This document shows, one piece after another, positions 3,186 to 40,832 of a stretch of DNA of 61,419 nt. How positions within the stretch are numbered: position 1 is the first letter of the stretch; every line of letters begins with the position of its first letter. Source of the stretch: a virus. The stretch covers positions 1 to 61,419 of IMG/VR virus record IMGVR_UViG_3300036881_000024, one strand, 5' to 3'. A program made the translations under genes and the position numbers. The notes under the pieces were generated by a model that was not told the origin of the DNA, did no database searches, and saw nothing but the letters and a program-made list of their open reading frames with translations.

Positions 3186-4080
3186 TCGGGGCGAACCCCA
3201 ACTCCGCACTCGGCTCCAGACCACGCGGACAGCACGATCTAAACGGGCAGGGATTCGTCCTCTGGAAGCATTGGCTGAATTGCGGCTCCGGGGGCTCCGT
3301 CGTCCCGGCAATGCGGCTCAGCTTAGATTCCGCGAGATGCAATATTGCATTAAAGTTTTCCGGCACATCGACGTGGTGGATCAGCACCACTTCCGGCAGT
3401 AAGCCGTCTTCCACGAGTTGATCCAGCCATTGTTCCCTTGTGAACCGCGATTCGTGCTGAAACACCGGCTCCCACGCACCGTCAAAGCCTGTCCCATCCC
3501 GCTTGCGGAACCTTAACTGCTTTGATACCGGGTGAGTCCAGCCCTTTACGAGCGGGCCATGCCGCCGCCCATTCCGTTCCTGCCCCAAAACCACTACCAC
3601 GAGGTCCATCGGAACGCCATAAATTGCTGATTCCAGAGTCCTCCAGTCATGCTCGGCTTCGAGTTGGCGGTAAATGTTCCACGTGGAACACAGAACAACC
3701 CTCCGTAGATGGCTCTCAGAGGGGTCTAGGAAGGCTGATGGGCTCCAGACATGGTTTCCTACCTTAATCGGCTCCGAGCGCTTCCACGGGCCTCCAGTGC
3801 GCAGCAAATAGACCACAAACGAAGCTATCCCGGCCAGATGTTCGGCCTGCCCCAACAAATCCTCTTGGTTCGAGTCGATGCCCCGGCTGGTAGCAATTTC
3901 CATCAAAGCATCGGAGGCCGCATCGCCGGGGTCTTTCCCTGTGCTATCTGTCAGGCCAGCTTCGACGGCGCTGTACAGGGCTTCGCTGGGCGTGAGCGCG
4001 GGAACCTGCCACCGCTCGAAGTAGTAGGCGGCTCGGCGGCAGTGGTCGTCGTCAGCGAGGATGCGTGGCGTACCATTCAT
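3157..4080 (-). CDS. Possible PD-(D/E)XK / Cas4-like protein with C-terminal Cys cluster
   Basis: About 307 residues from the ATG at 4080, which has AGGA 6 nt upstream; a longer TTG start at 4095 would overlap the upstream gene by 44 bases. An N-terminal HCRRAAYYFERW and a C-terminal QCFQRTNPCPFRSCCPRG pattern resemble phage RecB/Cas4-type nucleases, which carry one N-terminal Cys and a C-terminal Cys cluster. Between them GVPMDLVVVV could correspond to the Gly-x-x-x-Asp motif, but a clear E-x-K motif is not seen, so the catalytic core is doubtful. It is the last gene of the minus-strand virion block, after the internal virion proteins. It could equally be a structural or regulatory protein. 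Confidence 0.5.
   Translation of the reverse strand: MNGTPRILADDDHCRRAAYYFERWQVPALTPSEALYSAVEAGLTDSTGKDPGDAASDALMEIATSRGIDSNQEDLLGQAEHLAGIASFVVYLLRTGGPWKRSEPIKVGNHVWSPSAFLDPSESHLRRVVLCSTWNIYRQLEAEHDWRTLESAIYGVPMDLVVVVLGQERNGRRHGPLVKGWTHPVSKQLRFRKRDGTGFDGAWEPVFQHESRFTREQWLDQLVEDGLLPEVVLIHHVDVPENFNAILHLAESKLSRIAGTTEPPEPQFSQCFQRTNPCPFRSCCPRGLEPSAELGFAPTTSSRASLA
3337..3350 (+). promoter_or_regulatory. Dispersed palindrome copy 1
   Basis: ATGCAATATTGCAT, a perfect 14-bp palindrome matching the family TGC-R-ATATT-R-CA. It lies inside the coding region of the gene at 3157. Confidence 0.4.
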
Positions 4081-5812
4081 CGCGGTCCTGCTCAAGTTGG
4101 CGCGTTTTGGGACCGCGCGGAGTGAGTGTCACCCCCACCAGAGCGGCAAGCGCGGGATTGACCTTGACACCTTGCTTATCAGCCGCTTGCACAATCGGCT
4201 TGAGGTCACCGATGAGGTCCTGGGGAATCTCGGCAATATCCTGTGCCGTTACACGAGTCAAGAATTTGATAACCGCTGGACGCTCCACTAGGCTCGCAAT
4301 CGCGTGACTTCCTCCGGCGATTGCCAAGCCTCCGCCAACAGTACCTCCTAGACTCGGCAATTCCCCTCTCACAACGTCTCGGATCACATCAAGGACAGGC
4401 CAGATCAGACCCATCCGGTATCCGACGCTGCGAATTAGACCAGCGGCTTTTTTGATGGGCGCTGCTTTTGCGGCGCGAATATCGCGCTCATTGACTTTTC
4501 CTGTCTCCCCTGGCGCAGGTTTGGGTGCCCCCTTTGAAGCCTCCTGCGCTTCGCTCAACCGCTTAAACTCCGCTGGAATCTCAGCATCAAAAGAGCCAAG
4601 CAATCGTACGCGGTTCGACAGCGTATCCTGCTCTGCAACATCGGGAGCCGCAGAGCGCAGAACGCCGGTAGCGGCATCGGTCTGTCCCAGCGGCTTGCCG
4701 AAGGTCTGTTTCATGCGCCGCCAGTAGTTCCGCGCATCCGTCAGTTTGGCTTCGTAGTTCGGGTTCGGCTCCCCTTTTTCTACCGCTGCCGCATCTTCCC
4801 TCGCGGCGATCCGGCCCATCTCTTTTCCCATCGCCTCGTGCAACTCGTCATAGGCGTGGAACTCGTCACCGGGCAGCGTTCCTTTGGACAGTTCCTTGCC
4901 GAGCCGGGAGTAGTCGCCTTGCAGGTCTTCGTAGGTAAACGCATCCCCTCGCTGAAGTTTCGCTTCCATATTTTTCAGCAGGGTCGGTTCGGTGTGACTT
5001 CCCCTGAGACTTCCCGCAGCATCAGCCAGAGCGCCTTCCATGAACTCCGGGTCTGCCTCGATGGGGTTGAGCGTAGGATTCACCGCAGCGTACTTCTGAT
5101 TGCCGACTTCCAACGCCTTCTGGCGTGCCGTCTCGATTCGCGCTCGAACACTGCTGTACGCATCAGCCGCTTCGTTTCCGGCTTGAACTTTCTTGACCAA
5201 TTCCGCCGTCGTCTTCGGTCCCGTCCCGGTCGCTGTTTCCGCGATCCTGCCGCCCGCTTTCTTCGCCGTGTCCATCAAGCCCTTTGTCACAGGCCCGACG
5301 ACTTCACTTGCCGCTCCTGTGAACGCCGCCTGTCCGGTCATTTGCTCTGCCGTCTCCAGCGGTTGCGCCTTGAATGCCTGCCACATCTCGTCATAGATGC
5401 TCGTTTTGCCGCTCAAAGCGTCGTGAAGCAGTCCGGCAGGGCTCATGCGAAACGCGCTTTCCGCCGTGGCAAGAGGGTGCAGGGGAATCGACAGAAGCCC
5501 GCCGCCGATGTTCGATAGCGCCGTGCCGTACTCCGCGGCAACATCTTTGACGAAAGCACCCGCAGATGGGTTCTTGACAAACTCCTCCGCCCGTTCCTCA
5601 AAGCGGTGCGGCTGGATCTCCGTCAACTTGTCGCGCAAGCCCTCTTCGGGAACCGGCGTGCCTTGGACGCTTGGCAAGGCAATCGCAGACTTGTACTGCG
5701 GATACTTCGCAATCACCTTGTTGGCGATGTCGGTGTCGGAGAAACTGGCGTACTGCGGATACTTGGCTTTGACCTTCTGGCCGAATTGCTCAAGGGTCAT
5801 CTGGTTAGCCAT
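4052..5812 (-). CDS. Large internal virion / ejection-type protein
   Basis: A 586-residue protein starting MANQMTLEQFGQ. The N-terminus holds two copies of a short motif (KAKYPQYASFSDTDIANKV then IAKYPQYKSAI), a KYPQY duplication of the sort found at the start of phage internal virion proteins. The middle is a long Ala/Glu/Lys-rich helical region with a partly amphipathic stretch. A Gly/Ala-rich hydrophobic segment (about 480-510) could insert in a membrane. It is translationally coupled to the gene at 5812 (TGATG, stop and start share one base). Position after the tail hub gene in a podovirus-like order supports a role in DNA ejection; no enzymatic motif (such as transglycosylase Glu) was recognised. 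Confidence 0.65.
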   Translation of the reverse strand: MANQMTLEQFGQKVKAKYPQYASFSDTDIANKVIAKYPQYKSAIALPSVQGTPVPEEGLRDKLTEIQPHRFEERAEEFVKNPSAGAFVKDVAAEYGTALSNIGGGLLSIPLHPLATAESAFRMSPAGLLHDALSGKTSIYDEMWQAFKAQPLETAEQMTGQAAFTGAASEVVGPVTKGLMDTAKKAGGRIAETATGTGPKTTAELVKKVQAGNEAADAYSSVRARIETARQKALEVGNQKYAAVNPTLNPIEADPEFMEGALADAAGSLRGSHTEPTLLKNMEAKLQRGDAFTYEDLQGDYSRLGKELSKGTLPGDEFHAYDELHEAMGKEMGRIAAREDAAAVEKGEPNPNYEAKLTDARNYWRRMKQTFGKPLGQTDAATGVLRSAAPDVAEQDTLSNRVRLLGSFDAEIPAEFKRLSEAQEASKGAPKPAPGETGKVNERDIRAAKAAPIKKAAGLIRSVGYRMGLIWPVLDVIRDVVRGELPSLGGTVGGGLAIAGGSHAIASLVERPAVIKFLTRVTAQDIAEIPQDLIGDLKPIVQAADKQGVKVNPALAALVGVTLTPRGPKTRQLEQDRDEWYATHPR

Positions 5813-20112: not shown

Positions 20113-22914
20113 CTACGAACTGGAATTGACTACGCGAACCTGTCCCGATTTACTGCCTTTTTGCTCTGGATGATGCGCCGTCTTGCCGGTTGGCTTGCGC
20201 CCACCACCCGCACCTTGCCCTTTGCCTTGGTCCGGCGGCGGCTCGATGCCGAGCGACTTCATCTTGTCCTGCACCGCCTTCGCCACTTCGAGTTTCCAGA
20301 TTTCATCGGCGAGCTGCTCTTCCTTCCACTTCTCATGCCGCACCTGATAATCGGGAACGCCGATCTTCTCCATTGTCGTTTCGAGGTCAACGGGAAGATG
20401 CTGTTGCACGATGTACATTTGGAGCATCCGCTCCTGAATGTGCGTCACGTTCAAAAGCTGTGCCGGCGTGTTGATTACGCGCATCCGCTCGCAGTACCAC
20501 TTCGCGCGTTCCTGCCGCGTGTGGGCGCTGGCGTTGCCTGTATCCTCGCCGGGGAGATGCGACGGAACCAGAGAATTGGGATCGTTGTCAAACGTCTCGA
20601 CTCCAACTCCCTCCGGGCCGATCATGTCCATAATCATCGACACGGTGAAATACTGAGCGATGTTGTATTTCAGCATCTCCGCGTCTTTAGAGTTCGCAAT
20701 CCACTGATTTACCGCGATGCCTTTTGCCACCGGACCAAGATTCTCGATGATCTTGTCCATCGCCTGGTCGCTCATGTTGCCCTTGACTTCGCGCATCGAA
20801 GCAATGTCCGTCAGACCGAGAGCAGCTTTGATGGATGACCGCAGCATTTCGACAGTCTTAAAATCCGTCTCGTCGATTTTCAGGGACTCCGGCAAGAGAG
20901 ATTTCGTCCACTTCGAAGGATCGCCCTTGCCGCCGATTCTCACGCCCTGAGCGTGAAGAAGATCGAGCTTGTCCATCTGCGTCCGAGAGACGCCGGTCGA
21001 AACGTCAGAGCCAAGCGGAGGGTCTTTCTCAATTGCCTTCACAGTGTTGATGTCGGATAGGCGGTCGCGGCTGGCAACCTCCAAGCCCCGAATGCCGCTC
21101 ACGATGGAGTAGCCCATCGGCGACCACACCCAATCGTTCACGTCATGCTGCGTGACTGGTATCTTGCCGTGCCAGTCAAAGGCGGTGTCGTCGTAAAGCG
21201 GGACCGGGCAAGACGGCGAAGTAATAACCAGCCGAAGTTGCGGGTACATCCGGCAATCGGCAATCTCAGCTTTCCGGCTCTGCGGCAATCTGTTTTGCGG
21301 ATTGACCGTCACGATCAGGTCGCCCAGCGAAGGCACTTGGTATCCCCACCTCGTTCCGTCTACGCCCATCTGCTGCATGTAGCCGGTATCGTTGATTCGC
21401 AAATCATGGACAAAGTGATAGCGCAGCTCGCAGTTTCCGGTGATAGTTATTACGTCACCCTGACGCATTAGCCACGTTCCTAGCCCCGTGGTCGGGCACC
21501 ACACGTCCTGCGTTTCGCATTCCTCTCGCTTGAACTCCGTTCTCCTGTGAGGGTTTTGGAATAACGAAAATGTCCTAGTTTCAGACCCTTCGCCTACCTT
21601 CCTCCCTATTCCGGTGGATATTCCCTCAAGGGCACAAGCCAACTTCATAGCGTCGTACACTGGCCCCGGAAGTTGCGCAAACGATTCGTAATGATATTCT
21701 CCATCACCATGCGTCCGGCTGTTCCCTTCGCCAAATAGCATCCCGAGAATGAATGCCCTTCTTTCCCCTGAAGTCATTTGAAGGACCATCTCAACAGCTT
21801 TGCCTTTACGGATATAGTTTCCGACATCGATACCCTGAAGGCCGGGACCACTGGGAGCAAGCGCGGATTGAATCAGAATCGAGGCGTTTGAACAGTCGTC
21901 AATGGTTGCGAATTCTGAAGTTTCCCTGTAGAACTGCTCTGGCCGATTTTTCCTTGACTTTAGCGACGCCCTTTTCCGCACCACCCAGCGATGGTGGCGA
22001 GTGCATCGAACTGAGAATTTACTGCTCTTATACCAGTAGACTTTCTGTTCTGGGAAAACGTTGATGGCGTTCAACTTCGTCCACTCGCACCTGCGTGTGG
22101 TTTGGTTGTATCCCATGACCTCTTGGCCGATGACTAGTTCATCGTGCTTCTTCCATCCGTCCTTGGTAAGAATCTCCGAATCAAGCGGAACACAATATTT
22201 CTCGACCCAATCGGAATTACTTGACCCGCCGAATCTCCACCTGTCATAGAACTCGTACCGGCGAAGCATGTTCGGAGTTACGTTGACTCCCGTTCGCGCA
22301 TACTGCGAAATCGGCGTGAGCCATTGCTGGAATCGCGGGAACCGCGCGTGCGCTTCGGCGAGGCCCATCGGGAACACAATCGTCCCCGCATAACCATCGT
22401 CCAAGTCGCCGTTGTGCGGAAGCTGGTCCGGTAAGAATTCCCTCGGCCCCAGAGCTTCAAATTTCATCTTCGCCACGCCGCCGTTGTGCCACGGGCGAGA
22501 GAACTTCTGCCACTTGTAGCCGCGACCAAGCATGGCCCATTGAAGAGCTTTACGAGTATTCGGAACGTAGAGCGAATCCCAAAACACGAACTTGAAAATG
22601 TCGTTATAGAGCGCGACGGTTTTCTTTGACTGCTCCGCCTTCGATCCCATCGTCGCAATCTGGCGGAGGTCGGTAATCGTTTCGATGAATGAGCGGATGT
22701 CCGGCTGGAGAAGGTTCGATGGCATATCCCGGTCTTGGCCGGTGCCCATCAAAAGCTGAATGTCGTTTGTGAGGTTCGCAATACCGGGTTGATTCTGGAC
22801 CCAGGCATCGCCAGTCGCAACGAGGTCGGCCATCCAGCCAGCGATTTGGTATCTCGGCGTCTCACGCGGCGGGGCTTGCCAAGATAAAACCTTCCCATCG
22901 TCCTCACGCAGCAT
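20113..22914 (-). CDS. Portal protein precursor containing an intein
   Basis: About 933 residues from the ATG at 22914 (MLREDDGKVLSWQAPPRETP), preferred because GAGGT stands 5 nt before it; an ATG four codons earlier (22926) is possible. The outer parts are a portal: helical wing with PNTRKALQWAMLGRGYKWQ, a central domain, then PPPDQGKGQ and a basic disordered C-terminus. Residues 241-494 are a protein-splicing element (see 21433-22194). Removal leaves a ~679-residue protein joined EKY-CELRYHF, a usual portal length for this phage type. Twelve dodecamer subunits form the DNA entry channel between terminase and capsid. It follows an HNH gene whose first residues share VLSWQA with this protein. 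Confidence 0.8.
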   Translation of the reverse strand: MLREDDGKVLSWQAPPRETPRYQIAGWMADLVATGDAWVQNQPGIANLTNDIQLLMGTGQDRDMPSNLLQPDIRSFIETITDLRQIATMGSKAEQSKKTVALYNDIFKFVFWDSLYVPNTRKALQWAMLGRGYKWQKFSRPWHNGGVAKMKFEALGPREFLPDQLPHNGDLDDGYAGTIVFPMGLAEAHARFPRFQQWLTPISQYARTGVNVTPNMLRRYEFYDRWRFGGSSNSDWVEKYCVPLDSEILTKDGWKKHDELVIGQEVMGYNQTTRRCEWTKLNAINVFPEQKVYWYKSSKFSVRCTRHHRWVVRKRASLKSRKNRPEQFYRETSEFATIDDCSNASILIQSALAPSGPGLQGIDVGNYIRKGKAVEMVLQMTSGERRAFILGMLFGEGNSRTHGDGEYHYESFAQLPGPVYDAMKLACALEGISTGIGRKVGEGSETRTFSLFQNPHRRTEFKREECETQDVWCPTTGLGTWLMRQGDVITITGNCELRYHFVHDLRINDTGYMQQMGVDGTRWGYQVPSLGDLIVTVNPQNRLPQSRKAEIADCRMYPQLRLVITSPSCPVPLYDDTAFDWHGKIPVTQHDVNDWVWSPMGYSIVSGIRGLEVASRDRLSDINTVKAIEKDPPLGSDVSTGVSRTQMDKLDLLHAQGVRIGGKGDPSKWTKSLLPESLKIDETDFKTVEMLRSSIKAALGLTDIASMREVKGNMSDQAMDKIIENLGPVAKGIAVNQWIANSKDAEMLKYNIAQYFTVSMIMDMIGPEGVGVETFDNDPNSLVPSHLPGEDTGNASAHTRQERAKWYCERMRVINTPAQLLNVTHIQERMLQMYIVQQHLPVDLETTMEKIGVPDYQVRHEKWKEEQLADEIWKLEVAKAVQDKMKSLGIEPPPDQGKGQGAGGGRKPTGKTAHHPEQKGSKSGQVRVVNSSS
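21433..22194 (-). mobile_element. Intein in the portal gene, with degenerate LAGLIDADG-like motif
   Basis: Codes 254 residues from Cys (CVPLDSEILTKDGWKKHDEL) to Asn, followed by Cys+1. Block A is the Cys with D-x-E-I-x-T-x-x-G; block B is RCTRHHRWVV with the T-x-x-H signature. Block F/G is ETQDVWCPTTGLGT followed by GDVITITGN-C, a form in which Gly replaces the penultimate His. Between them FILGMLFGEGNSR looks like one LAGLIDADG helix; a second is not clear, so the endonuclease may be dead or single-motif. Autocatalytic splicing is inferred from intact Cys1, B-block His, terminal Asn and Cys+1. Confidence 0.85.
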
Positions 22915-23668
22915 ATAGCACCTCATACTTTATAATTGAAGTGCCCTTCTTTGAATTACATACGCCACATAGCGGCTGCAAATTCTCAATCGTGTTTGAG
23001 CCGCCTTTAATCAGTGGAACAATATGATCGACGGTCAGCTTTATTTCTGGTTCCCGTTTACCGCAGCAGAGGCAGCGATGCTCGCAGTATTCAACAAGCG
23101 CGGTCCATTCTTGGGCGGTGAAATTTCCCCTTATCCTAGCCGCCGCCTTGCGCTTCCGATTCGCCTTCCTGCTCACTTCTCTATGGGCGTGTTTCCACAC
23201 AGCCTTTACGGCCTTATCTTGAACCTTTCTCTCCGCGTCTCTAGCAGCAAGACGAGCCTTCTCTATCTCATTTTTGTGCTTCTTCTGATCGGCGTCTCTC
23301 TTTGCGTACCATTCGCGGTTCTTTTGGCGAAAAGACTCTTTCCTCTCTTCGGACGCAGACTTCCACGCTCTCTGGTAGGAATTCTCGGCTTCCCTATCCG
23401 CAGGAGTCATGCTCTTCCGTCTCGCCCTGGCATGGTCTTGCTTTTGCTTGTTTCTTGCATCCTTTTTATCTGATACAAGATTCCGATGCCAAAGTCTATT
23501 TCTTTCGCGGAAATGCTCGATTCGTTTAGGGTCATGATAACGACGACGCGCACCCTCTTTATCTTCGGCGCGAGCTTTCTCCAGTTCCTCTGGAGTCATA
23601 TCGGCTCGGCGCTTCTTGCGCCAATTTGCTTGCCAGCTAAGGACGCGCTCTGGCTCTTCAATCCTCAC
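22904..23668 (-). CDS. HNH homing endonuclease with basic N-terminal arm
   Basis: A 254-residue protein from a GTG overlapping the upstream stop (GTGA). Residues 194-242 form an HNH nuclease: CLCCGKREPEIKLTVDHIVP, then IKGGSNTIENLQPLCGVCNS with two CxxC pairs and the DHIVP core. Residues 15-170 are a long Arg/Lys/Glu-rich helix with repeats of the form N-R-x-W/Y. The first residues (MRIEEPERVLSWQA) share VLSWQA with the start of the portal protein, whose gene it overlaps by about 10-23 bases. I infer insertion of the endonuclease gene into the 5-prime end of the portal gene, capturing its original start. It would nick intein- or HNH-free relatives to spread. Confidence 0.8.
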   Translation of the reverse strand: MRIEEPERVLSWQANWRKKRRADMTPEELEKARAEDKEGARRRYHDPKRIEHFRERNRLWHRNLVSDKKDARNKQKQDHARARRKSMTPADREAENSYQRAWKSASEERKESFRQKNREWYAKRDADQKKHKNEIEKARLAARDAERKVQDKAVKAVWKHAHREVSRKANRKRKAAARIRGNFTAQEWTALVEYCEHRCLCCGKREPEIKLTVDHIVPLIKGGSNTIENLQPLCGVCNSKKGTSIIKYEVLYAA

Positions 23669-24170: not shown

Positions 24171-24176
24171 TATAAT
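24171..24176 (+). promoter_or_regulatory. -10 box TATAAT for the small plus-strand gene
   Basis: A perfect TATAAT that would start transcription near 24183, about 46 nt before the ATG at 24229. A TTTACA at 24142 is too far (23 nt) to be a standard -35 box. Confidence 0.45.
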
Positions 24177-24228
24177 GGGGCTGTGGATGTTTGAGCATCC
24201 GCACATCTCAGGCTTTAGGGAGCCGTCA

Positions 24229-24432
24229 ATGCCAACCCCATCTGACAAAGTGTACAACGCCAAAGAGCGTGCGCGTGCTGCCGTGCGCAAATATCATGCT
24301 TCCCACAGAGAAGAGAAGAACGCATATTCGCGCAAATACTACAAAGCAAATCGGGAAAAGATACTCGCGCAAAAAGTGGAGATATTGCTTGCTGCCATTG
24401 AATACCTTTCAGTAGCCCGGAACAAGGATTGA
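24229..24432 (+). CDS. 67-residue basic helical protein, resembles the arm of HNH endonucleases
   Basis: ATG at 24229 has AGGGAG 8 nt upstream and a TATAAT about 50 nt upstream. The sequence MPTPSDKVYNAKERARAAVR continues with KYYKANREKILAQKVE, a Lys/Arg/Tyr-rich helix with the N-R-x-K repeat also seen in the N-terminal arm of the HNH protein at 22904. No HNH motif is present. It may be the DNA-binding remnant of a homing endonuclease. The last 24 bases overlap the end of the convergent terminase gene. Confidence 0.55.
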   Translation: MPTPSDKVYNAKERARAAVRKYHASHREEKNAYSRKYYKANREKILAQKVEILLAAIEYLSVARNKD

Positions 24433-26583
24433 CCTTTCGGACCACCCATCTTCGAGAGCCTTCTTGATCCGCGGTTCCAGCGGCCACCTAGACTGAATTC
24501 TCTGAGCGGAGTTTTCGTCATCGTGTAGTGCCGTCCAACATAACGCATCTCCGAATATCCCGTCGTCGTGCTGTCCGACTTCATGTTCCATGCGAGCGGC
24601 TGCGCTTCTCCCTTCGCTTGCATCGAACTTGCGAACGAACGTGGCTAATTGGCGAATGGAAATCGGATCATTTAATATCAACCATCCAGTGTTAACCGCA
24701 TCGACGTACCGACTCAGAAGAATCGCTCGCGTATAGGTCCGCGTGAACCATCCCTCCTGAGTTCCCTTGTTCGGGTCGATATTTCCTTTCGAGTCGTAGC
24801 GGTGCATGATGTGGTGATCGAGAAATCCCATGATCTTGAGTTGGTGCATACACTCGTCACCGGGCTTGCGTACCTGCTCAATGATGAATCTCGCCAGCAA
24901 GGGATTCGATGAAATAACATTTCCCCTGCCATCGCTCCCATACAACACGGCTACAGCAGCAGCGATACGCGCCATCTGGGGGGAATTCACGCGGAGAGAA
25001 TTGAAACTTGCCACAATTATGTCGGGGTCGCGGCTGTGTCCGTATTTGCTCACCCGTAGCGCCGATCGATCTTCGTTGGGCTGATTGAGCCCATGCGCAG
25101 TGTCAATCGAGATCGCGTACTCCGCCCCTGGTTGCGGCTCCTCAAAGATCAGCAGCTTGTCGAAGCATGGCTCGTCAGTCGAATCGTCGAACTGGCGCAG
25201 CGGCACAAGGCTCCAGCGGTATTGGTTGTCGTCCAGACCAGTCCAGTCGAGCACGATGTTCGGCTCGTTCGGATTCACGTCCACAGGATCGGGCTCGTAA
25301 GGCTTGTTCTCATTGCCCATCAAGATCGTGCGGCCTGTGATCGCGTAAGCCGCGTAGTTCTTTTCCCGCGCATCGGTTACCAGCGTGATCGTTTCCTGTG
25401 TGAACACCGGATCGTCTTTCGACTGGAAAGCATCTACCGGGGTGACGGCGTTGGCGGCGAGGAATTCCCGCTCCGTGTGTCCAGCGATTGCCTCTTCGTA
25501 GCCGCACTGCCAGAACCACTGAAACTCTTTAGGCATCTCCCAACGCTGGCCCAGCACTTTCCAGAGATAGTCCGTCGAGCGAACGTAAAGCTCTCCCCTG
25601 CGCCGCATCTTGCGCGTAGCGTCCGTTACGTGCTCGTTCCATGGCTCGGGGACCGGATGCTGCCGCAACCACGACTCCGGCGGGTACAGGTCTGTCGCAC
25701 AGGCCGGGGGGATGAAGAATGCCTTGAACCGGCCACGACCCGATGAGTAGAGTTCCCACTTCTCTTTCTGCCACGTCGTAGCCGTCGAACCCGTTCCTTC
25801 AAGCACCATGAAAAGCGACGGCAGTTGATGACACGCGGGAAACAGACCTTCGTCCAGCGTATGCGCCGGGTTCGTATAGTCGCCCAGCTCTGAGATATGA
25901 ATACATGAGGGCGAATCACCCTGCGCGATACCGACTTCCTGCGCGCCAGCTTGAACCGAAAGACGAGAGCCATTCGTCCAGCGCGGCTCAGTGACTTTGA
26001 TAGACGACTGCGGAACGCGGAGCCAGAACGGAAGCCGCTCCTGACAGGTGTCGATCATGTTCTTCAACTTCTGCGATTGCGGAACCTGCACAGACGCCAT
26101 GACCGCGTAGGTGTTCGCAACGTAGAGAATCCGGTGCAGGAAGAACAGAGCCGTGACCGTCGAGACGCCCAACTGCCGCGCCTTCAAAATGAAAAGCTGA
26201 ATCGCTATCTGGAGGTCGTCGCACTCAGCAAGGAACGCGAGAAAGATTTTCTGAGCGAGCCGGAAGTCGAAGTGAACGATCTGCGTGTTCGCGGCGCGGA
26301 TGAAAGCGTAGCGGGTGACGAAATACTCAGCCGAGGCGAAGCTCAGGAACCGTTCGTTGGTGATCCATCGCTTGATCTTTTTGACTGTCGCCGGTGAGGG
26401 AGATTTTTCGTCCTTCCAGAAGAAGTACGACCGCGCTCCGGTTTTTGATTGCGACATATCCGCATACTTCGCTATCTCCTCAACCATGTGATCGCACTCG
26501 CCGACCGAGTGCATCTGCGGCTCCCAGCCGTTGCGCAGTTCAAAGTCTCGGATTGTAGCGGCGACGACCTTATCGCTGTACAT
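24409..26583 (-). CDS. Terminase large subunit
   Basis: A 724-residue DNA-packaging motor (MYSDKVVAATIRDFELRNGW). The ATPase has a Walker A-like KARQLGVST at 134-142 and a Walker B CIHISE at 227-232. The C-terminal nuclease begins around YAISIDTAHG with the first metal-binding Asp at 494 and has a later acidic pair in DDGIFGDALCW (about 680). The N-terminal ~70 residues are an extra helical region compared with many terminases. Length is at the long end for the family. The gene follows the C-terminal fragment of a broken methyltransferase with a 14-base overlap and precedes the portal cluster. No intein is seen here. Confidence 0.88.
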   Translation of the reverse strand: MYSDKVVAATIRDFELRNGWEPQMHSVGECDHMVEEIAKYADMSQSKTGARSYFFWKDEKSPSPATVKKIKRWITNERFLSFASAEYFVTRYAFIRAANTQIVHFDFRLAQKIFLAFLAECDDLQIAIQLFILKARQLGVSTVTALFFLHRILYVANTYAVMASVQVPQSQKLKNMIDTCQERLPFWLRVPQSSIKVTEPRWTNGSRLSVQAGAQEVGIAQGDSPSCIHISELGDYTNPAHTLDEGLFPACHQLPSLFMVLEGTGSTATTWQKEKWELYSSGRGRFKAFFIPPACATDLYPPESWLRQHPVPEPWNEHVTDATRKMRRRGELYVRSTDYLWKVLGQRWEMPKEFQWFWQCGYEEAIAGHTEREFLAANAVTPVDAFQSKDDPVFTQETITLVTDAREKNYAAYAITGRTILMGNENKPYEPDPVDVNPNEPNIVLDWTGLDDNQYRWSLVPLRQFDDSTDEPCFDKLLIFEEPQPGAEYAISIDTAHGLNQPNEDRSALRVSKYGHSRDPDIIVASFNSLRVNSPQMARIAAAVAVLYGSDGRGNVISSNPLLARFIIEQVRKPGDECMHQLKIMGFLDHHIMHRYDSKGNIDPNKGTQEGWFTRTYTRAILLSRYVDAVNTGWLILNDPISIRQLATFVRKFDASEGRSAAARMEHEVGQHDDGIFGDALCWTALHDDENSAQRIQSRWPLEPRIKKALEDGWSERSILVPGY

Positions 26584-38051: not shown

Positions 38052-38110
38052 TGAATATCCGCCTCTCCCTGCTTTCCATCGGCCAGTTTTCGGTCGCGCT
38101 TGGGCTTCAT
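38048..38110 (-). CDS. 20-residue basic micro-ORF between the helicase and the next gene
   Basis: MKPKRDRKLADGKQGEADIQ. It has an ATGA overlap with the helicase stop and a GTGA overlap with the following gene. It may only serve to pass ribosomes between the two genes. Confidence 0.4.
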   Translation of the reverse strand: MKPKRDRKLADGKQGEADIQ

Positions 38111-40626
38111 ACTTTTGTCCTCATCATGGAACGCTTGGCATCGATAGCCGCGCTCACCTGCCCTTTGGTCGCCCCCGGAGGCACCGCGAGTCTCAGGATG
38201 CGTGCCAGAGATAATTGCTTTTCTGTCGGCTTGTCGCCGTGCCATCTCGCATCGCGCTTCACCAGCCCGGTAAATTCCTTCGGCACCATCGCGTCTGCGA
38301 TGTTAAATGCGCCAGGTAAATTCTGTGCTGAGTATTCGATCTGCGCTCCATTCAGGTTTCCGCGTATCTGGTACTCATCGCGCAAGTCTTTCGTGATTGT
38401 GACCACGCCGCGATTGACCACCAGCATGTACCCGTCGCCGTTCTTCCGCCAGCCGAATTCAGATAGCTTCGAGACTTCAGGCGGGTAGTGAACCTGAAAC
38501 AGCGCAATGTCTTCTGCTATCGCGTCCAGCTTTGACAGGCTCAGAACTTCGCTCAGGTCGGCGCTTGGAAATTCTTTGGCCACCTTCTCAAACTGTTCCT
38601 TCGCCCGGATAACTGACTTGCCCTTAAGGTCGAGATTCGTCGGCAGTCCCAACAGACTCGGCATCGTTACCAGCGAGTGCTTTGAAGTGTTGTCTACCAC
38701 ATCCATAATCAGCGTGTACTCTTTGCCGTCATCGATCCGGGTTCCCCGTCCGATCATCTGCGTAAAGAGAAGCTGAGACTTCGTGGGCTTTGCCAGCACG
38801 ATGCACTTGATTCCCGGGTCGTCGTATCCCTCTGTCAACACTGCACAGTTACACAGGACCGTCAGGGCGTTCTCTCTGTGCCGCTGGAGCTTGCGTGCGC
38901 GCTCGGGATCGTCTCCCCAAACTGCCTCGGCTTCAATGGAGCACTGTTTGAACGCCGCCGCGAGGTCGAGGGCGTGCTGAATATCCACAGTGAATACGAC
39001 CGTCTTAAATCCATAGGCGACCCGCATCCATTCCTTAACGATGATTGCGTTGCGCTCTACCGTGTTCACTGCATCCGATAGTTCATCCTCGGCAAAGTCA
39101 CCGGCCCGTGAGTGAACCTTGTCGAGATTCGTTTTGGTTGATACGCGGACGCCGCGAAGATCAACGAGCCACCCGGACTCGATGCCCGAGCGGATACCCA
39201 TGTCGAATACGATCTCATCGAAGAACTGCCTGAGCCCCTGTCCGTCGGAACGGTTGGGCGTTGCCGTCAGGCCCAGCGAAAGTATCTGCGACTCTCCCGG
39301 TCTAAGGAGGCCGAAGTATTCAAGCACGTTCCGCCACTGAGCGCCGGTCGCATGGTGACAGTTGTGAACTAGGAAGCCGTTGGCGAAATAGGTGTGAGTT
39401 TCTTCGACTTCGAGATTGTAGACATAATCACATTCAGGACGCCCGGAAGATTGTTGAGGATTTGGTCGTTCCTGAACCTCAATACCGTCCACCCTAACCC
39501 ACTCAGAAGCGCATCCTTCTTCCGGTCCTGTTCCTGTCGAGATAGCATCCCGTGAGAAGTCCCTTCGGCCTCCACACCTACCTTGAGGTCGCGGTTCCCA
39601 ACATCCAGCTTGTAGACGGTCGGATAGCCACTGCCACGGCCTTTGCCAGTAAGAACGCCAACCTCCGTTTCCCACCCCAACGCTGCTGCGAGCATCTGCT
39701 GCGGTTTCGTGAGTCCCGTCCCGTTCCCCCCGCGCACTGAGGGCTTGTGTCCCATCGCCCTCAGTGTTGCGGTCATCTTTTCTTTCGATCCCGCTCTCCG
39801 CATGGGATTGTTCGTCTTCATACGAGCCGAACAGTGCTCTAAGTTGGTCCGCGTCATGCGCTCCGAACTGAGACGTGCCACATATGCTACCTTGCAAGAA
39901 TCCGAGCAGTAAGCCCTGCCCTTTTTCGCGTATAGCATCATGCGGTCGTGTGATTGGGTGCAGAGGTCCACGTCTCCAGTGCAGTGAGAACAAGAGACGA
40001 TCATCGCTGGTGAGGTCGATTGCATTGATCCATCCTTTCTGTGTATAAATCGGATGTTCCGCCGTGCAAGTGAAGTTGCCGTCTGCGGTTTTCACCAGCA
40101 CTAAATATTCAGGCATCGGGTTCCTGTATATTCGAGAAACCCCGCGTTTTTCAATGGTCCCATTGGACTCATCATACGACAATACAGCTTCCCCAATGCG
40201 GATAGTTTCTATAGGTTTCCCGTCGATCAATGTGCCTGCTGGGAAGCACTCATCAGAGACAACGCAATCGAAGTCGTCGCGGTGAAACTTCAATATGCGC
40301 TTCGATCTTGCCCGTCCGAGCGTGGGCACGGACGCCACGATGAATGTGTCCATCGGGCTTGAGGTTCGCTCCGCCTTTTCGACGCCAACCATCAGGTCCG
40401 GGTTCCAGCGTTGCAGTTTATCCGCCGCCTGGTTAGCCAACTCCTCGCGGTGTACAAGAACCATGATCTTCTTGCGGAAGTTCATCTGGTCCCTGAGCGC
40501 CGCGAAGAGAACTGCTTTGCCGAGTCCGGTAGCCAACACGCCAAGCTGCCGCGTAATTCCCGCATCATATCTCTCTCTAACTCGCTGGAAGAATTCGCGC
40601 TGGTAGTCCCGAAGTTGAAGGGTCAT
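38107..40626 (-). CDS. Superfamily 2 helicase precursor containing an intein
   Basis: About 839 residues from ATG 40626 (MTLQLRDYQREFFQRVRERY) with AGGA 5 nt upstream; the frame is open to 40767. Motifs are Q-like LRDYQ, motif I LATGLGKAVLF, motif II split as SDE/CHH, motif III LGLTATPNRSDG and motif VI TQMIGRGTRID. The fold is the RadD/UvsW/SSL2-like group. Motif I reads GLGKA where GKT/S is expected, so ATP binding may be impaired. Residues 127-422 are an intein. Spliced, the helicase is ~543 residues with an intact DECH box. It works in phage DNA replication or recombination next to a PD-(D/E)XK nuclease and annealing-like protein. Confidence 0.8.
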   Translation of the reverse strand: MTLQLRDYQREFFQRVRERYDAGITRQLGVLATGLGKAVLFAALRDQMNFRKKIMVLVHREELANQAADKLQRWNPDLMVGVEKAERTSSPMDTFIVASVPTLGRARSKRILKFHRDDFDCVVSDECFPAGTLIDGKPIETIRIGEAVLSYDESNGTIEKRGVSRIYRNPMPEYLVLVKTADGNFTCTAEHPIYTQKGWINAIDLTSDDRLLFSLHWRRGPLHPITRPHDAIREKGQGLLLGFLQGSICGTSQFGAHDADQLRALFGSYEDEQSHAESGIERKDDRNTEGDGTQALSARGERDGTHETAADARSSVGVGNGGWRSYWQRPWQWLSDRLQAGCWEPRPQGRCGGRRDFSRDAISTGTGPEEGCASEWVRVDGIEVQERPNPQQSSGRPECDYVYNLEVEETHTYFANGFLVHNCHHATGAQWRNVLEYFGLLRPGESQILSLGLTATPNRSDGQGLRQFFDEIVFDMGIRSGIESGWLVDLRGVRVSTKTNLDKVHSRAGDFAEDELSDAVNTVERNAIIVKEWMRVAYGFKTVVFTVDIQHALDLAAAFKQCSIEAEAVWGDDPERARKLQRHRENALTVLCNCAVLTEGYDDPGIKCIVLAKPTKSQLLFTQMIGRGTRIDDGKEYTLIMDVVDNTSKHSLVTMPSLLGLPTNLDLKGKSVIRAKEQFEKVAKEFPSADLSEVLSLSKLDAIAEDIALFQVHYPPEVSKLSEFGWRKNGDGYMLVVNRGVVTITKDLRDEYQIRGNLNGAQIEYSAQNLPGAFNIADAMVPKEFTGLVKRDARWHGDKPTEKQLSLARILRLAVPPGATKGQVSAAIDAKRSMMRTKV
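39361..40248 (-). mobile_element. Intein in helicase motif II, hosting a nested endonuclease gene
   Basis: Codes 296 residues from Cys (CFPAGTLIDGKPIETIRIGE) to Asn, with Cys+1 (CHHATGA). Block A is CFPAGTLI; block B is FTCTAEHPIYTQKGW with T-x-x-H; block F/G is YVYNLEVEETHTYFANGFLV followed by HN. Insertion between Glu and Cys of the DECH box is a typical intein site. The stretch between blocks B and F is polar low-complexity sequence with no endonuclease motif in this frame, because it overlaps the separate gene at 39369 in another frame. Confidence 0.85.
39369..40025 (-). CDS. Vsr/EDxHD-like homing endonuclease nested out of frame in the helicase intein
   Basis: A 218-residue protein from ATG 40025 with AAAGGA 7 nt upstream, in a frame different from the helicase on the same strand. 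An N-terminal zinc-finger-like part (CSHCTGDVDLC, CSDSCKVAYVA) is followed by a basic linker. A C-terminal Vsr/DUF559-like nuclease follows: KLDVGNRDLKVGVEAEGTSH, then RQEQDRKKDALLSGLGWTVL, RFRNDQILNN. Acidic Glu/Glu, His and Asp residues line up with the EDxHD family of homing endonucleases. It ends 8 bases before the intein end, so it is wholly inside the intein. It likely promotes intein or gene spread to intein-free relatives. Confidence 0.75.
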   Translation of the reverse strand: MQSTSPAMIVSCSHCTGDVDLCTQSHDRMMLYAKKGRAYCSDSCKVAYVARLSSERMTRTNLEHCSARMKTNNPMRRAGSKEKMTATLRAMGHKPSVRGGNGTGLTKPQQMLAAALGWETEVGVLTGKGRGSGYPTVYKLDVGNRDLKVGVEAEGTSHGMLSRQEQDRKKDALLSGLGWTVLRFRNDQILNNLPGVLNVIMSTISKSKKLTPISPTAS

Positions 40627-40832
40627 GATTTCCTGAATGAATCCTGCTCTGTGCAAGTGGCCCAATGCGCGACCGCCGCATCCCCGCCGCGCTGCATCGG
40701 GTTCATCGGAATGTTCTTGCCGTTGGGAGTCTCCCACCATTCGATAGACTCCCCGCAGCCCTTGCACTCGGCATGGTCCTTGAACTTGTAGCCGCGCGCC
40801 GTCATTTCGTCTAGCGTTTTCGGAAATGCCAT
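40623..40832 (-). CDS. Small zinc-ribbon protein
   Basis: Sixty-nine residues from ATG 40832 with GGGAG upstream (frame open to 40859). MAFPKTLDEMTARGYKFKDH is followed by ECKGCGESIEWWETPNGKNI and HWATCTEQ, giving CKGC and HW..C ligands. It is coupled to the helicase start (ATGA). Similar small Cys proteins accompany phage helicases; possible DNA binding. Confidence 0.6.
   Translation of the reverse strand: MAFPKTLDEMTARGYKFKDHAECKGCGESIEWWETPNGKNIPMNPMQRGGDAAVAHWATCTEQDSFRKS

Follow-up and report, generated by a model that had tools for sequence, protein, structure and literature searches.

Layout of the portal locus

The window analysed here is the whole of the IMG/VR virus record IMGVR_UViG_3300036881_000024 (61,419 bases), which comes from a phage known from environmental DNA. 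On its minus strand, an ORF of 937 amino acids (positions 20113–22926) is open throughout and combines what appears to be a phage portal protein with a probable intein that interrupts it. The parts of this ORF are as follows.

22195–22926 (−): portal N-extein, residues 1–244, ending EKY; adjoins the C-extein without a gap in 15/15 relatives that cover the site
21433–22194 (−): probable intein, 254 amino acids, Cys1 to Asn254; from translation, empty sites, family alignment and predicted Hint fold
21865–22194 (−): N-terminal Hint part, about residues 1–110, with Cys1, Thr65, His68 and Trp70 (B:12); from profile matches and invariant columns, with approximate boundaries taken from the structure model
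21517–21831 (−): predicted single-LAGLIDADG endonuclease half-domain, about residues 122–226, with the acidic residue Glu156; from the model, boundaries approximate
21433–21516 (−): C-terminal intein segment; its C, T, G and N are invariant across the 49 aligned members
20113–21432 (−): portal C-extein and stop codon, +1 residue Cys; 16 relatives at 73–98% identity

The identification of the host gene as a phage portal, already made in the first-pass annotation, is supported by several matches. The annotated portal of the Tunturiibacter phages Tunturi_1 and Tunturi_2 matches the window portal in tblastn (27% identity, 39% of the query, E = 4e-36), phrog_156, a portal family of PHROG, is matched by the relative L107 (E = 2.3e-6), and a terminase-like gene lies upstream (24409–26583; phrog_5989, E = 3.9e-8). 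The window portal ORF itself had no portal family match in Pfam or PHROG, nor had that of the relative L012, and a profile of 15 portals searched against solved structures matched no solved portal; the portal name is thus based on homology together with gene order. The host of the Tunturi phages suggests an acidobacterial host for this phage as well. A structure model of the portal, which was meant to place the insertion site in the protein, reached a pLDDT of 34 and was set aside.

Inserts at the portal start and elsewhere in the window

The start of the portal gene is occupied by an HNH endonuclease ORF (22904–23668, −; Pfam HNH, E = 6.6e-14). The sequence that opens the portal in the relative L016 (MRIEEPER...) here opens this ORF, and past the ORF the portal starts anew from a diverged second copy (VLSWQAPPRE). 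At the beginning of the restarted portal, over ~100 bases, agreement with L016 is poor (23/48 and 37/60); further on, 52–56 of 60 bases match. The same arrangement, with this HNH gene (69%), is seen in another relative, L017, which carries no intein, so that the HNH gene and the intein are separate elements. An Rfam scan of the whole window at the gathering score found nothing, so that an intron reading of the HNH insert has no support from known intron families.

The spot in front of the portal is apparently an insertion hotspot. Other inserts lie there in the relatives (L003:3862–4557, L005:4663–5296 and L012:4239–5281), and each contains an antisense ORF that by eye resembles an HNH gene. 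In the window, a short antisense ORF at 24175–24432 (+), between the terminase and the next gene, resembles by eye the basic N-terminal part of the relatives' antisense endonuclease ORFs. A second, unrelated-looking intein is seen in a RadD/ResIII-like helicase ORF (38107–40767, −), at about residues 175–470; it ends FANGFLVHN before CHHATG, matches Pfam PT-HINT (E = 1.9e-11) and NCBIfam intein_Cterm (E = 2.7e-9), and the helicase matches split around it.

The insert is absent to the codon from related portals

Positions 21433–22194 (−) translate without a stop into 254 residues that run from Cys1 to Asn254, in frame within the portal ORF, with EKY before them and CELRYHF after. Relatives of the C-extein were found on 16 viral contigs, 15 of which cover the join (L015 falls short of the site). 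None of these 15 has anything between N-extein and C-extein; the insert is absent to the codon. The alignment with intein-free portals therefore bears out, to the base, the 254-residue intein and the extein join EKY/CELRYHF that the first-pass annotation had proposed. The residue before the site is Tyr in 15/15 relatives, and the +1 residue is Cys in eight, Thr in five, Ser in one and Ile in one. L016, the nearest relative, shares 95% of the 359 portal residues that were compared.

The motifs from which the intein had originally been called, namely Cys1, a T-x-x-H stretch, a block containing WCPTT and an Asn followed by Cys+1, are all in place, with T-x-x-H at T65/H68 and VWCPTT at residues 231–236. 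The intein profile search that had been suggested as a check was less productive: Pfam and PHROG scans gave no match for the window intein, and its NCBIfam intein_Nterm match (E = 0.16, 13 bits) lies below the cut-off of 24.5. Family relatives came from tblastn, by which annotated phage records were found to hold full-length relatives of the intein (E down to 6e-29), one of them with the depositors' label 'intein'. Considering the N-terminal nucleophile Cys1, T65/H68, Asn254 and Cys+1 together with the codon-exact absence in homologues, the predicted Hint fold and the signs of mobility described below, we put the probability that 21433–22194 encodes a mobile intein hosted by a phage portal at roughly 95%, its splicing being what we infer from these features.

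Cys1 occurs together with the class-3 WCT triplet

The block residues of the window intein are Thr65 (B:7), His68 (B:10), Trp70 (B:12), Cys233 (F:4), Thr252 (G:5), Gly253 (G:6) and Asn254. They include, alongside Cys1, the full class-3 WCT triplet (Trp70, Cys233 and Thr252), of which the first-pass annotation made no mention, and the residue before the final Asn is Gly, not the usual His. Trp(B:12), Cys(F:4) and Thr(G:5) are named as the class-3 triplet in the passages of PMC5222942 and PMC7891396 that deal with it, and, for the Mch DnaB1 intein, the corresponding part of PMC7664689 describes a Cys-His-Thr triad at these class-3 positions. Class 3, as defined in passages of PMC7891396 and PMC5050341, has no nucleophile at position 1. 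The window intein has Cys at that position and, for this reason, we do not file it as class 3.

We then counted these residues across the family. Loci were chosen by the patterns GTW[VL]MRQ and [EQ][IA]LT[RK][DK]GW plus a tblastn match to the window intein; neither pattern contains Cys1, Trp(B:12), Cys(F:4) or Thr(G:5). The resulting 80 loci, among which there are near-duplicates (e.g. L018/L019/L020, L025/L026, L028/L029, L045/L046 and L096/L097/L098), were read in two parts. From the 49 read first, the fragment L033 was dropped, and the remaining 48 plus the window make up 49 aligned members; the other 31 were read later, 29 of them with a readable start and 21 readable at both ends.

Cys1, His(B:10), Cys(F:4), Thr(G:5), Gly(G:6) and the final Asn are present in 49/49 aligned members, window included, and Trp(B:12) in 45/49. 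The further 29 members with a readable start have Cys in 24 cases, Cys after a one-residue shift in two (L099 and L100) and Pro in three (L068, L072 and L073). Across the 70 viral members readable at both ends, both cysteines occur in 67, Cys(F:4) only in two (L068 and L073, both read to the end), Cys1 only in one (L094, with Ala at F:4) and neither in none. On bacterial genome contigs we found 29 members, and Cys1 is present in 23/23 of those read; these members were picked by patterns containing WCP and TGN, so that their Cys1 count alone is informative. Tori and Perler reportedly noted, in 2011, a few inteins that combine the WCT triplet with Cys1 or Ser1. The literature passages returned by our search held no description of the present lineage as keeping both cysteines throughout.

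As to the members with Pro, it replaces Cys after LPGG in L068, L072 and L073. The block-F Cys and TGN are retained in L068 and L073, which look like naturally occurring class-3-like members in a lineage otherwise dominated by Cys1. The DNA surrounding L073 matched nothing in the phage records.

Judged by these residues, either Cys1, as in class 1, or Cys233, as in class 3, may initiate the first acyl shift. We give roughly even chances to a plain class 1 intein, in which Cys1 does everything and Cys233 merely replaces the usual block-F Asp. Such an intein would agree with the presence of Cys1 in 49/49 core members and in 26/29 of the further ones with a readable start, and Kelley et al. treated as class 1 an intein that also has a penultimate Gly, the Bethlehem RDF intein, which splices completely and is slowed by changing Gly to His (PMC5050341, in the sections on this intein). 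It would, however, leave aside that the class-3 triad Cys(F:4), His(B:10) and Thr(G:5) (the triad as given in the part of PMC7664689 cited above) is kept in 49/49 members and that members without Cys1 exist (L068, L072 and L073). We lean slightly toward a block-F cysteine that is able to start splicing. That the intein holds two nucleophiles is what we infer from conservation, and a conserved cysteine pair would also be compatible with another role for one of the two.

Predicted fold and the endonuclease half-domain

The AlphaFold model of the intein (17 sequences) has a mean pLDDT of 89.5 and a pTM of 0.87. Its top Foldseek matches are PI-SceI entries (E = 1.1e-8). Structural re-alignment gave Z = 17.8 for the TliVMA intein (rmsd 3.5, 235 residues), Z = 16.6 for the AceL NrdHF class-3 intein (rmsd 2.1, 142 residues) and Z = 16.6 for the Synechocystis DnaB intein, SspDnaB (rmsd 2.3, 131 residues), and an intein profile matched solved inteins over profile positions ~5–100. 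Within residues ~122–226 the model places the elements H142–156, E157–162, E167–174, H178–189, E207–212 and E216–218 (H for helix, E for strand). The half-domain shows the helix-strand-strand-helix-strand pattern, and its LAGLIDADG helix reads ILGMLFGEG, with Glu156. According to the model, the window intein would consist of a Hint fold and one LAGLIDADG half-domain, compact and not evidently degenerate.

The first-pass annotation had described the LAGLIDADG-like stretch as short and the endonuclease as possibly degenerate. The first part stands, with one LAGLIDADG half per chain in the window intein; the second does not agree with the half being complete in the model, with the conservation of its acidic residue or with low dN/dS in relatives. 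At the acidic position, 48 of the 49 members have Glu (27) or Asp (21) and one has a gap. Over the endonuclease part, the boundaries of which are approximate, dN is 0.013 and dS 0.363 for the pair L034–L035, and 0.286 and 1.477 for L018–L025, a pair near saturation.

We consider it rather unlikely that the intein is real and its endonuclease degenerate, with a spread that is passive or helped by the neighbouring HNH endonuclease. The single LAGLIDADG motif, the lack of a Pfam LAGLIDADG match in the window intein and the HNH gene at the portal start would all fit such a history, but the retained acidic residue and the dN and dS values just given argue against decay, single-motif members are found in portals, metallophosphoesterases and DNA polymerases alike, and L017 carries the HNH gene but no intein. 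The profile match to I-DmoI is weak (E = 0.14). A one-motif LAGLIDADG enzyme would have to dimerise. Around the join, we found no palindromic homing site beyond chance: in five sequences, the best of 17 centres was equalled by 2.8 to 12.4% of positions in the same gene.

The intein in a second portal lineage

The inteins nearest to the window's (L018, L019 and L020 at 56.4% identity, L025 and L026 at 54.7%) come from uncultured phages in IMG/VR and occupy the aligned same codon of a second portal lineage. They resemble the window intein in having Cys1, WCT, TGN and one LAGLIDADG, and differ from its case in that they carry no annotation and sit in exteins just 28–29% identical to the window's. 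Between the window and L018, identity is 56.4% for the intein and 28.6% for the extein. Within the second lineage, the two are alike (71.4% for the intein and 71.1% for the extein between L018 and L025). The intein is thus far more alike than the extein across lineages, unlike within the lineage, which indicates that it moved horizontally between distant portal lineages. A tree built from 21 inteins places the window's together with L018 and L025 (support 96/94).

The second lineage has the intein in 5/14 loci and lacks it in nine. L113, with the intein, and L115, without it, have flanks identical at 3,594/3,595 and 2,239/2,251 bases and differ by an exact in-frame insert; the flanks of L112 and L115 are identical at 4,359/4,404 and 2,236/2,251 bases. 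In the window's own portal lineage, the sole intein carrier among the loci found is the window itself, with no second copy. Overall, exact empty sites, pairs of near-identical phages that differ in carrying the intein, and clear movement between distant portal lineages make this portal intein a well-documented one.

We propose that the Hint domain would excise itself from a 937-residue precursor and join Tyr244 to the +1 Cys, and that the product would be a 683-residue portal resembling those of the intein-free relatives. Portal alleles lacking the intein would be cut at the insertion codon by the single-LAGLIDADG half-domain, probably in dimeric form, and repair of the cut allele would copy the intein in. 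A portal is normally indispensable, and a dead intein should therefore be lost from its gene. That the segment is an ordinary extra domain kept in the mature portal, or a dead non-splicing intein, is very improbable: the penultimate Gly in place of His and the curated intein models below their cut-offs speak for it, but every catalytic position is kept across the family at ~30% identity, the insertion is codon-exact in two portal lineages, and the Bethlehem RDF intein splices with the same penultimate Gly (PMC5050341, same sections).

Comparison with known inteins

Portal inteins are already in print, and the window's is a further example. The remark in the first-pass annotation that a portal is an uncommon host for an intein has to be tempered accordingly: Table 1 of Kelley et al. 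2016 (PMC5050341) gives six portal inteins in mycobacteriophage cluster C1, which we liken to the window's by host gene alone, and gene 8 (portal) of Gordonia phage Lahirium bears the record note 'contains intein'. Belphegor, also a Gordonia phage, has a portal intein without such a note, and both inteins are of the same family as the window's. The Lahirium and Belphegor inteins share the portal host, Cys1 and the end motifs WCPTT...TGN with the window intein, but they are 332–354 residues long and have Ser at +1; by eye, their flanks differ from the window site and their portals are of other types.

Outside portals, the DNA polymerase I intein of phi92-type Escherichia and Klebsiella phages (e.g. 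PaulScherrer) gives a full-length match at 32–34% identity (E down to 6e-29). It shares the end motif VWCP...TGN and the size of the window intein, and differs in host gene (DNA polymerase). The feature that the depositors call 'intein' in Escherichia phage PaulScherrer (L021:3007–3741) is apparently one codon off, running from Val2 to the +1 Cys. The family also occurs in metallophosphoesterase-like genes (L027 and L028) and in other family-A polymerases.

As the lineage keeps the nucleophiles of both class 1 and class 3, the debated origin of class-3 splicing could be addressed by mutagenesis of a 254-residue protein. As far as their published descriptions go, the class 3 inteins Msm DnaB1, Mch DnaB1 and AceL NrdHF share Trp(B:12), Cys(F:4) and Thr(G:5) with the window intein, and AceL NrdHF, which matches its model, likewise has no block-G His. 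Class 3 inteins, by the published definition in those passages, have no Cys or Ser at position 1, whereas the window intein has Cys1.
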